64,000 nt of DNA from Anaeromyxobacter dehalogenans 2CP-1 (GTDB lineage Bacteria > Myxococcota > Myxococcia > Myxococcales > Anaeromyxobacteraceae). The position numbers and the translations under genes were made by a program. Positions 42,111 to 47,289 of the stretch are shown piece after piece; within the stretch, counting starts at the first letter, position 1, and every line of letters starts with the position of its first letter. The notes under the pieces were generated by a model, which saw only the letters and a program-made list of their open reading frames with translations, was not told where the DNA came from and ran no database searches. The DNA lies in contig NC_011891.1 in assembly GCF_000022145.1 (NCBI RefSeq), positions 2,740,001-2,804,000 on the forward strand, in the 5' to 3' direction.

Positions 42111-42394
42111 GGCAGGGCTCCTCGTCCGGTCAGCGTAGCCCAGCAGGGCTGGCGCCTGGAACCGGGCCGGCGGGGGCCTGGCGGGCGACCAGCCGCTCCC
42201 GCGGGCGGCCGCCGTGCGGACGGCGCTGCGCTCCGCGTCGACCTGCCGTGGAACTCGCCTTCCACCGATCGCCCACCGCCACCCACCTGCCGCCGCGGTT
42301 CTCCGCGCGGCGGCGCGTCCCGGTCGCTGGCCCGGCGCTCGCACAGCGGGCCGCCGGTCCCGCGCGGCTCGCGGGCGGACTTCACGGAGGGGAG

Positions 42395-43918
42395 ATGCTC
42401 GGACGAGGCGGGGCCTGGGTGGCGCTGGCGGCGGCGGTCGCGATCGCGGGCTGCGGCTCGGGCGGGAAGGATCCCGCGCCGGTCACGCCGCCCGGCGGCG
42501 GCGCCGGCGGAGGCGGAGGGGGCGGCGATGGGGGCGGCGGAGGAGGCGGCGGCGGCGGCGGGGGCGGCGGGACCACGCCGCCCCGCTTCCAGTTCGGGAC
42601 GCAGGGGCCCTGGGCGGTGGAGAACGCCACCTACGGCGCGAGCGCCGGCATCCAGGAGTCGCCGGTGGTCGGGTTCAGCACCGACGAGACGCAGAACCGG
42701 TGGCTGGCCACCCCGTCGGCGCTCTACCTGCTCCGGCCCGGCGAGACCACGTTCCGCCGCTACGACGAGGGCGACGGGCTGCACCTGGGCGCGAACCGGA
42801 TGCGGTACTGCCGCGACCGCCCGGTCCGCCCCGAGACGCCCTGCGCCGACGCCGACGTGAGCTGGGGCGTGGCGGCGCCCGAGGGCATCCGCTCGATCGT
42901 GGGCGGCGGGCCGGACGAGGTGTTCGTGGGGTACCACGGCATCCACCCGGGCGGCTCGGACTGCGGCGCCAACGGGGACGGCGAGGACTGGTGCGATCCC
43001 GACCGCCACAGCGGGAAGATCGACCGCGTCCGCCTGAACGCGGACGGGACGCTGGCGGTCGAGCGCTTCGACCTGGTCGCCGGGAACCACGGCGCGAAGT
43101 ACTGGCACGACCGGTCCATCTACCGGATGGTCTACGACCACTTCGCCCATCCGCACACGCTGTACGCCGGCACCGAGCACGGCGTGGACCTGCTCTTCCC
43201 CGACCAGTTCCGCTGGCCGGATCCGCCCATGGAGTGGCTCGACTCCTTCAACGACGACTACATGGGCGACCACCTGCACGCCAGCGTCTGCAAGGACGCG
43301 CCCTGCGACGGCAGCGGCGCGAACCAGCGCCTCGGCGACTGGGCCGGCCTCGCCATCGACGCGAACGGGGACCTGTGGCACGCCGGCAAGTGGGCCGCCG
43401 GCCTGATCACCTGGGACGCGGATCCGTTCCACTGGGTCGCCCGCAACGGCGCCGCGTTCAAGGTCGCGTTCGGCGACCCGTACTATCCCGACGGCACCGG
43501 CAACATGCCGGTGTTCCCGGTCGCGAACGAGGGACACGACGTCCTCATGACCGGCGTCGCGGTCTGCCCGGACGGCACGGTCTGGTTCTCGAGCGCCGGC
43601 CCGGCGGACGGGGTGATGGAGACGGTCGCCTCGTGGGACGGGCACCGCTTCACGCACTACCTGTCGAGCGCGCTCGGCCTGGGCGAGCGGCCGGTGCGCG
43701 ACATCGCCTGCCTCCCCGACGGGCGGGTGGTGCTGGCGGGGTACACCACTGGTGTCTCGATCTGGGATCCGGCCACCCGGACGTCGAGGTCGATCCGCGC
43801 CGGGAGCGGCCTGCCGAGCGACCGGGTGACCGCGATCGAGGTGGACCGGATGCCGTCGCCGCCCACGCTGCACGTCTCCACCGCCGGCGGCGCGGCGGCC
43901 ATCCGCGTGCTGCCCTAG
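42395..43918 (+). CDS. Lipoprotein with poly-glycine linker and propeller-like domain
   Basis: A 507-residue predicted lipoprotein. The signal MLGRGGAWVALAAAVAIAGC has its lipobox Cys at 20. A glycine tract of 26 residues with only two interruptions (34-59) acts as a flexible tether. The remaining 440 residues contain repeated short WF/W-type strands such as DGTVWFSSAGPADGV, GLAIDANGDLWHAGKW and GVSIWDPATRTSRSI, as in beta-propellers of the two-component-regulator type. It has cysteines in the first third. GGAGGGGAG precedes the start. Probably cell-surface; function unknown. The coding DNA of the tract (42494-42571) is a GGC/GGG run prone to slippage. Confidence 0.8.
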   Translation: MLGRGGAWVALAAAVAIAGCGSGGKDPAPVTPPGGGAGGGGGGGDGGGGGGGGGGGGGGTTPPRFQFGTQGPWAVENATYGASAGIQESPVVGFSTDETQNRWLATPSALYLLRPGETTFRRYDEGDGLHLGANRMRYCRDRPVRPETPCADADVSWGVAAPEGIRSIVGGGPDEVFVGYHGIHPGGSDCGANGDGEDWCDPDRHSGKIDRVRLNADGTLAVERFDLVAGNHGAKYWHDRSIYRMVYDHFAHPHTLYAGTEHGVDLLFPDQFRWPDPPMEWLDSFNDDYMGDHLHASVCKDAPCDGSGANQRLGDWAGLAIDANGDLWHAGKWAAGLITWDADPFHWVARNGAAFKVAFGDPYYPDGTGNMPVFPVANEGHDVLMTGVAVCPDGTVWFSSAGPADGVMETVASWDGHRFTHYLSSALGLGERPVRDIACLPDGRVVLAGYTTGVSIWDPATRTSRSIRAGSGLPSDRVTAIEVDRMPSPPTLHVSTAGGAAAIRVLP

Positions 43919-43941: not shown

Positions 43942-44553
43942 CTACGTGCGCGGGCGGGCCCCGGCGCGCCGGGCGGCGTCGGCGAGCACGTCGTACGGGC
44001 GGCAGCCGACCACCCGGAGCGCGTCGCCGAAGTCGAACGTCGGGATGCCGGTGACGCCGGCCCGCGTCGCCTCGGCGCGGGCCGCGTCCACCGCGGCGAG
44101 GCGCGCCGGATCCGAGCCCGCCGCCACCGCGGCGACCGGGTCCAGGCCGGCCTCGCGCGCCAGCCAGCGCAGGTCCTCGTCGGTTTCGATGCCCCAGCCG
44201 CGCCGCCAGTGCGCGTCGAACGCCACCGCCCGGTACGGCTCGAGCCGGCCCTGCTCGCGCGCGAGCTGCGCCACCGCCAGCGCGCGGCGCGTGTTGGGGA
44301 TGCGATCCGGCGGGCGCAGGTCGTCGATGCCGAAGCCCGCGGCGAAGGAGCGCAGGTAGCCGGACATGGCCTCCGCGTTCGGGAACCGCTCCGCCACCGC
44401 GATCCCGCCGGGCGGCGTGTCGGGGTGGAGCTCGTATCCCACCCACTCCAGCTCCAGCTCGTACTCGTCCAGCAGCCTGACCAGGCTGCTCCGCTCCGCG
44501 ACGAAGCAGAACGGTCAGACGAAGTCGGTGAAGAGTCTCAGGCGTGCAGGCAT
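43942..44553 (-). CDS. DsbA/FrnE-like oxidoreductase, probable selenoprotein (in-frame UGA at codon 13)
   Basis: Read through the UGA at 44515-44517, the frame gives 203 residues of a DsbA-family (FrnE, 2-hydroxychromene isomerase-like) thioredoxin-fold protein. The start is MPARLRLFTDFV, then the UGA codon, then PFCFVAERS; the family has CPFC or CPWC here, so UGA replaces the first catalytic cysteine and the motif is U13-P-F-C16. The rest is intact: LHPDTPPGG near 42-50, PNTRRALAVAQ near 86-96 and the cis-Pro loop GVTGIPTF (Pro171). An in-frame TAA four codons before the ATG means no other upstream start exists. Codons after the UGA have the normal high G/C third positions. A caller ignoring UGA would start at GTG 44442, losing the active site. 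Ribosome-binding site is poor. Sel genes are not in the window. Divergent from the DTW gene. Confidence 0.85.
44471..44490 (-). ncRNA. Candidate bacterial SECIS hairpin
   Basis: In the mRNA, AGCAGCCT and AGGCTGCT pair perfectly over eight bases around the loop GGTC, 24 bases after the UGA and with the loop starting 32 bases after it. That lies in the range known for bacterial SECIS elements. The E. coli fdhF/fdnG element presents GGUC in the loop that SelB recognises. The stem uses AGC, AGC, CTG and AGG codons for Ser-Ser-Leu and Arg; AGG is uncommon here. A second possible stem, CTGCTTCG/CGGAGCAG, lies nearer the UGA. Confidence 0.7.
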
Positions 44554-45249: not shown

Positions 45250-47289
45250 ATGCCCTTCCGCTTCCACCCCGGCCCGAGGGACGCCGAGACCCGCGCCCGG
45301 CGCGGCACGCTCGAGACGCCGCACGGGCGCGTCGAGACCCCCGCCTTCATGCCGGTGGGCACGCGCGCCAGCGTCACCGGGCTCACCCCCGCCGACGTGC
45401 GCGAGGCGGGCGCCGAGGTCATCCTCGGCAACACCTACCACCTGCTGCTCCGCCCCGGGCCCGAGGCGTTCCGCGCGCTCGGCGGCATCCACCGCTTCAT
45501 GCGCTGGGACGGCCCGATCCTCACCGACTCCGGCGGCTTCCAGATCTTCTCGCTCTCGCACGACCGCGTCATCACCGAGGCGGGCGCGCGCTTCCGCAGC
45601 TACGTGGACGGACGCCCGCAGCTCCTCACCCCCGAGTCCTCCATCGCGATGCAGACCGCGATCGGCTCGGACGTGATGATGGTGCTCGACGTCTGCCTGC
45701 CCTCCACCGCCGAGGCGGCCGAGATCCGCGCCGCCATGGAGCGCACCCACCGCTGGGCGCTGCGCAGCCTGGCCGCGCGCACCAACCCCGAGCAGGCGCT
45801 CTTCGCCATCGTCCAGGGCGGCCTCGACCCGGCGCTGCGCGCCGCCTCGGCCGGCTTCCTCACCCAGCACCCGTTCGACGGCTTCGCCATCGGCGGGCTC
45901 GCGGTCGGCGACACCCGGGCCGAGCGCGGCGAGGTGGTGGCGCGCGCCGCCGAGCTGCTCCCGCTCGATCGCCCGCGCTACCTCATGGGCGTGGGCACGC
46001 CGCCCGACCTCCTCGAGGCCATCGGCCACGGCGTGGACATGTTCGACTGCATCCTGCCCACCACGCTCGCCTGGCAGGGCACCGCCTTCACCTCCACCGG
46101 CCGCGTGCGCCTCACCCGCACCGAGCACCGGCTCTCCGAGCTCCCGCTCGACGCCGCCTGCGGCTGCGACACCTGCCGCGGCTGGAGCCGCGCCTACCTG
46201 CACCACCTGTTCAAGTGCCGCGAGCCCCTCGGGCCGCGCCTCGTGTCCGTCCACAACCTCCGCCACTACCTCGACCTCATGCGCGGCGCGCGCGCGGCCA
46301 TCGAGGCCGGCCGCTACGGCGCCTACCAGCGCGAGCGGCTCGAGGCGCTCGACCGCCACGAGCACGACCGCAGCGCACGCCCACCGGGCCGCCGCCGCCT
46401 CCCCGAGCCGCCGCCGCCGACGCCCGCGGCCCCGCCGGCGGAGGCGCCGCGCGACGGCGCCCGCTTCCACCTCGTCGTCACGTCCCAGGGCGCGCCCGCG
46501 GTGCGCGACTCGGAGTCCGGCGAGGTGATGCACCCGGTGATCGGCCCGGCGGTGGAGGCGGAGCGGCTGTACGTGGCCCAGTCGCGCCTCCGCGAGCGGC
46601 TCGCCGAGCCGGGGCCGCCGCTGGTGCTGCTCGACGTGGGGCTGGGCGCCGGCTCGAACGCGCTCGCCGCGATCCGCGCGGCCGGGGCGGTCCCGCCGGG
46701 CGGACGCGGCCTGGAGATCGTCAGCTTCGAGCGCGATCTCGGGGCGCTCGGGCTGGCGACGTCGGACGAGGGCGCGGCGCGGCTGGGCCTCGGGCCGGAG
46801 GACCTCGACGCGGCGCGGGCGCTCCTGCGCGACGGCGCCTGGGGCTCGGCGCGCGTGCGCTGGCGGATCGTCCTGGGCGACCTGCTGGAGACGCTGCCGC
46901 GGCAGGACCTCCGCGCCGAGGTGATCTTCTGGGATCCGTTCAGCCCGCGCGCGAACCCGGGCCTGTGGACGCTGGGGGCGTTCGCCGCCGCATGGGCGCG
47001 CTCCGGCCCGCGCTGCGCGCTGTACACGTACAGCACGGCCACCGCGACGCGCTCGGCCCTGCTCCTCGCCGGCTTCCACGTGGGCGTGGGCGACCCGAGC
47101 GGCCCGAAGGAGCAGACCACCGCGGCCGCGACGGATCCGGCGCTCCTGGCGCGCCCGCTCGACGCGCGCTGGCTGGCGCGGCTCGAGCGCTCCTCGGCGC
47201 CGTTCCCGCCGGACGCGCCTCCCGACGCGCTCGCGCGGGTGCGCGCGCACCCGCAGTTCTCGGCGCGGCGCGAGGAGGAGGTCGCGTGA
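45250..47289 (+). CDS. tgt: Fusion of tRNA-guanine transglycosylase with MnmC-type methyltransferase domain
   Basis: A 679-residue protein. Residues 1-375 are Tgt, which exchanges G34 for preQ1 in tRNAs with GUN anticodons: ETPAFMPVGTRASVTGL, DSGGFQIFSLS, GGLAVGDTRAERGEVV, MGVGTPPDLLEAI and the zinc cysteines CGCDTC at 304-309. The nucleophile Asp near 266 is present, but the following conserved PTRxxRNG loop reads PTTLAWQGTAF. Residues 415-640 resemble the methyltransferase half of MnmC (mnm5U34 formation): LLDVGLGAGSNALAAI and WDPFSPRANPGLWT, matching the DGFxPxxNPxxW signature. The FAD oxidase half of MnmC is missing. Its stop overlaps the next gene (GTGA). Confidence 0.88.
   Translation: MPFRFHPGPRDAETRARRGTLETPHGRVETPAFMPVGTRASVTGLTPADVREAGAEVILGNTYHLLLRPGPEAFRALGGIHRFMRWDGPILTDSGGFQIFSLSHDRVITEAGARFRSYVDGRPQLLTPESSIAMQTAIGSDVMMVLDVCLPSTAEAAEIRAAMERTHRWALRSLAARTNPEQALFAIVQGGLDPALRAASAGFLTQHPFDGFAIGGLAVGDTRAERGEVVARAAELLPLDRPRYLMGVGTPPDLLEAIGHGVDMFDCILPTTLAWQGTAFTSTGRVRLTRTEHRLSELPLDAACGCDTCRGWSRAYLHHLFKCREPLGPRLVSVHNLRHYLDLMRGARAAIEAGRYGAYQRERLEALDRHEHDRSARPPGRRRLPEPPPPTPAAPPAEAPRDGARFHLVVTSQGAPAVRDSESGEVMHPVIGPAVEAERLYVAQSRLRERLAEPGPPLVLLDVGLGAGSNALAAIRAAGAVPPGGRGLEIVSFERDLGALGLATSDEGAARLGLGPEDLDAARALLRDGAWGSARVRWRIVLGDLLETLPRQDLRAEVIFWDPFSPRANPGLWTLGAFAAAWARSGPRCALYTYSTATATRSALLLAGFHVGVGDPSGPKEQTTAAATDPALLARPLDARWLARLERSSAPFPPDAPPDALARVRAHPQFSARREEEVA

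Follow-up and report, generated by a model that had tools for sequence, protein, structure and literature searches.

A DsbA/FrnE-like gene of Anaeromyxobacter dehalogenans 2CP-1 with UGA at its catalytic cysteine codon: comparative evidence for an already listed selenoprotein

A DsbA/FrnE-like gene in Anaeromyxobacter dehalogenans 2CP-1 carries an in-frame UGA where its family has the first active-site cysteine, which raises the question of whether this codon specifies selenocysteine (Sec) or interrupts the gene, and whether the protein, if it is a selenoprotein, is a new one. The gene lies in a window of 64,000 nucleotides (NC_011891.1, positions 2,740,001 to 2,804,000), the whole stretch of DNA analysed here. 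In our assessment, it is very probably a functional selenoprotein gene, in which SelB decodes UGA13 with a downstream hairpin to yield a FrnE-like oxidoreductase with Sec13-Pro-Phe-Cys16, and, by exclusion, is the DsbA-like selenoprotein already listed for this species. The support is computed and comes from the gene itself, UGA/Cys interchange, hairpin conservation, the Sec machinery, purifying selection and the fold.

Reading frame, family and fold

The features of the reading frame are as follows.

43942..44553, minus strand: predicted DsbA/FrnE-like selenoprotein gene, 203 aa with UGA13 read through; stop codon at 43944-43942
44515..44517, minus strand: predicted Sec-UGA codon 13 at the catalytic Cys position, from translation and the codon alignment of homologues
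44506..44508, minus strand: Cys16 codon (TGC), the putative resolving Cys of the U-P-F-C motif, invariant in the alignment
44002..44004, minus strand: Cys184 codon in VVGC, a clade-specific third Cys after the last strand

Read through, the minus strand from 44553 to 43942 encodes MPARLRLFTDFV-U-PFC...GVTGIPTF...stop, and codon 13 (44517-44515) is its one in-frame TGA. This codon occupies the column of the first Cys of the family's CPFC motif; the sequence-only reading had placed it there, and both the translation and the homologue codons agree. The in-frame TAA four codons 5' of the ATG, also pointed out earlier, is present in the sequence, and the truncation expected under the standard code occurs: table 11 calls a 166-aa ORF from GTG 44442 and nothing longer. 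This mechanical call is what would favour a shorter protein started at GTG 44442, with the upstream codons left untranslated. Such a product would be missing the parts with the strongest conservation, namely the first strand and the active-site motif, and codons 8-28 are strongly conserved, synonymous sites included, so that we consider it highly improbable. The gene model truncated under the standard code is thus corrected to a selenoprotein gene of 203 codons.

The read-through protein matches Pfam DSBA (PF01323) over residues 5-193 (E 9.3e-27; 94.5 bits against a gathering cut-off of 25.6), with the thioredoxin fold and helical insert of that family, and matches the sequence of FrnE of Deinococcus radiodurans at 7e-13. 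Its AlphaFold model has a mean pLDDT of 96.9, and the best PDB match of the model is FrnE (Foldseek E 7e-14, TM 0.85). In the model, MPARLRLFTDFV at the N-terminus is the start of the first strand, and helix 14-20 starts just after UGA13. The traits of the FrnE subfamily are found as well, namely U13-P-F-C16 at the CPxC site, a cis-Pro loop with invariant Pro171, and no signal peptide. The DsbA/FrnE-like identity first proposed from the letters is therefore upheld by the Pfam match, the D. radiodurans FrnE match and the fold.

Compared with D. radiodurans FrnE (DR_0659; PDB 5cnw, 5co3), the selenoprotein shares the fold and a CPxC-type active site, but has Sec where FrnE has Cys. Furthermore, FrnE has a C-terminal CxxxxC (239-244), as many FrnE members do, whereas a search of the selenoprotein for this motif did not find it; besides Sec13, only Cys16 and Cys184 are present, and the clade has this single third Cys. 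Some FrnE proteins are without the C-terminal CxxxxC, hence the motif is not obligatory (PMC8945050). For D. radiodurans FrnE, a role as cytoplasmic disulfide reductase has been proposed, and cells that lose FrnE are more sensitive to cadmium and diamide (PMC8945050). The Rcas_1661 family thioredoxin-like (seleno)lipoprotein (NF041057) was also considered and rejected: it matches the C-terminal portion of the selenoprotein weakly and in part, at 22 bits against a curated cut-off of 190, and, unlike in that family, the selenoprotein N-terminus begins directly at the first strand.

We also looked at the neighbouring genes. The selenoprotein gene has a divergent neighbour for a DTW-domain protein (PF03942; 44634-45239, plus strand). 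Immediately 3' of this neighbour is a fusion gene (45250-47289, plus strand), in which a linker rich in Pro and Ala connects a tRNA-guanine transglycosylase Tgt (TIGR00430) with an MnmC2-like methyltransferase domain (PF05430). Judged by its domains, this fusion would place two activities on the tRNA wobble base in a single frame. On the other side, 42248-43918 (plus strand) encodes a protein of 556 aa, which contains a long run rich in glycine as well as propeller-like sequence and for which the Pfam search gave no match.

UGA, cysteine and selection among homologues

Homologues with an internal TGA at the same codon occur in 9 of 9 Anaeromyxobacter genomes and in several other Myxococcota families; the closest named relative is Anaeromyxobacter sp. 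PSR-1, with 98% identity in the selenoprotein. At codon 13 every examined locus has TGA, TGC or TGT, with no TAA or TAG among these homologue loci, and at codon 16 the only triplets are the two Cys codons, TGC and TGT. The alignment thus gives the Cys or UGA at position 13 that the sequence-only reading had expected in relatives. That reading had also named other stops, or decay of the downstream sequence in sister strains, as signs of a pseudogene; neither is seen, and the sequence 3' of the UGA is under purifying selection. Its dN/dS is 0.06-0.07 against two sisters at 98% identity and 0.34-0.65 against congeners at 61-73% identity; constraint on GC-rich codons has probably lowered dS against these distant congeners.

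These data bear directly on the pseudogene reading, in which codon 13 has suffered a nonsense mutation; this would account for a lone in-frame stop close to the 5' end. Yet the UGA is kept over deep divergence (48-98% identity) and in many genera with open downstream frames, no further stops or frameshifts are found, purifying selection against the close sisters is strong, and the hairpin downstream is conserved. Because the UGA is kept at one codon across Myxococcota, a chance stop is excluded, and the probability that we assign to a pseudogene is close to nil.

In a tree of 75 proteins, the UPFC clade comprises 17 Sec and 6 Cys rows. One Cys form, L036, is sister to the Sec form L034 (support 100/99) and nested inside Sec relatives. 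Its DNA (L036 1501-2064, genome G012) mostly keeps the hairpin sequence, with changes in the loop and in one stem base, and the genome retains tRNA-Sec and selA. The best reading of L036 is that Sec has reverted to Cys and that the bSECIS has decayed. Myxococcota also contain a second FrnE-like clade (UPWC, UGA rows of L044-L050), in which UGA falls in that same column and the conserved hairpin is a different one, GGYCUC-GNN-GAGGUC. Seven Sec/Cys changes are needed on the tree, at least five of them forced by well-supported branches, a count that does not by itself settle the number of Sec origins.

The bSECIS hairpin and the selenocysteine machinery

Two hairpins are predicted 3' of the UGA.

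44471..44490, minus strand: predicted bSECIS hairpin AGCAGCCU-GGUC-AGGCUGCU, with an 8-bp stem and a 4-nt loop starting with GG
44491..44514, minus strand: predicted proximal hairpin CCGUUCUGC-UUCGUC-GCGGAGCGG between the UGA and the bSECIS, less conserved

Published constraints on bSECIS elements are a loop of 3-9 nt, a stem of 4-16 bp, a G in the first two loop positions and a spacing of 16-37 nt (PMC13188914). The 8-bp stem, the GGUC loop and the 32 nt between the UGA and the loop all lie within these limits. An 18-nt hairpin core is identical in 19 of the 20 UGA loci of the clade, some of which are near copies or one gene fetched twice, and is missing from Cys homologues. With near copies removed, synonymous identity in codons 22-28 is 0.96, the highest of any 7-codon stretch in the gene, compared with 0.61 in codons 33-203; in Cys homologues, codons 22-28 reach 0.66 (few pairs).

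The hairpin signal of the single sequence is moderate, with the stem reached by 3% of synonymous shuffles. When synonymous codons are randomised, the observed stem is reached in about 1.5-6% of draws for most UGA homologues and in 16-35% for three others; for Cys homologues the figure is 25-86%. The hairpin also lies outside the global MFE in a few UGA homologues (L031, L035 and L038). MFE folding alone is a weak discriminator, and the informative test is synonymous-site conservation. A search of the genome (one contig, 5,029,329 bases) with Rfam SECIS_1 gave no match, but control genomes likewise gave none, so this result is uninformative. The UGA homologue L031 has a hairpin core that differs from the sequence invariant elsewhere; in the draft genome that carries it (G039), selA and selB are present, with no tRNA-Sec over the cut-off.

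The A. dehalogenans 2CP-1 genome encodes tRNA-Sec (selC; 76.7 bits, also called tRNA-SeC by ARAGORN), and profile searches found selB (293 bits), selD (381 bits; this gene, too, has one in-frame TGA) and selA (509 bits, split into two pieces within a single frame). The check on selA, selB, selC and selD that had been proposed from the sequence thus finds all four, each over its cut-off. Among the relatives tested, one genome (G030) is without selA, shows no tRNA-Sec and no selB over the cut-off, and is without the selenoprotein gene too. Decoding of the UGA as Cys or Trp by a near-cognate or suppressor tRNA would fit its occupying a Cys position, but the complete Sec machinery in the genome and the conserved bSECIS-like hairpin, absent from Cys homologues, make such decoding very unlikely. 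We therefore favour Sec insertion: the machinery, the UGA/Cys column free of TAA and TAG, purifying selection and the bSECIS all support the predicted U-x-x-C selenoprotein.

Predicted mechanism and relation to known selenoproteins

In the mechanism that we propose, the hairpin just 3' of UGA13 would direct SelB to deliver Sec-tRNA(Sec) at this codon, and the predicted product is a cytosolic-type thiol-disulfide oxidoreductase of the DsbA fold (FrnE-like). The Sec13 selenolate would attack substrate disulfides, or peroxide, and Cys16 would resolve the intermediate. Of the 17 UPFC-clade rows covering the site, 16 have Cys184, which follows strand 179-182 of the AlphaFold model; it occurs in Sec and Cys forms alike, and the outgroup residue is Ala, rarely another. 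In E. coli thioredoxin the equivalent position is presumably Ala93, a neighbour of the catalytic Cys. Cys184 is thus probably beside the active site and may help to regenerate the Sec13/Cys16 site. A more tentative idea, and on balance a doubtful one, is that Cys184 forms with Sec13 and Cys16 a third redox centre, a selenenylsulfide relay that would regenerate the enzyme in place of the CxxxxC of FrnE.

The sequence-only reading was right about the selenoprotein, but the protein is already known and the word "new" has to be dropped. COG2761 is, we assume, the FrnE COG. DsbA-like UxxC selenoproteins were assigned to it in a Sargasso Sea survey in 2005 (PMC1088965), and a 2026 review has the entry "DsbA-like protein form 1, PF01323, UxxC" (PMC13188914); compared by family and motif, our protein shares the Pfam family, the UxxC motif and a downstream bSECIS. 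In the accessible part of their paper, Zhang et al. (2006) credited A. dehalogenans with 11 selenoproteins: FdhA (3), SelD, peroxiredoxin (3), proline reductase, thioredoxin (2) and a DsbA-like protein (PMC1794560). Since that list, as far as accessible, has one DsbA-like entry from the same organism or a very close strain, and exactly one PF01323 gene in the genome has an in-frame stop, the gene at 43942-44553, the two are the same by exclusion, a match made without coordinates and with a strain that may differ. Literature searches for FrnE as a selenoprotein or with selenocysteine returned unrelated papers only, and those for myxobacterial selenoproteins gave nothing useful.

In summary, nine congeners, a near-invariant bSECIS and one apparent Sec-to-Cys reversion provide strong comparative evidence for a selenoprotein that, in the accessible part of the 2006 paper, is listed by name only. 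Additionally, the 18-nt core of the bSECIS, which persists between proteins with as little as 48% identity, offers a good natural data set for SelB recognition in Myxococcota.
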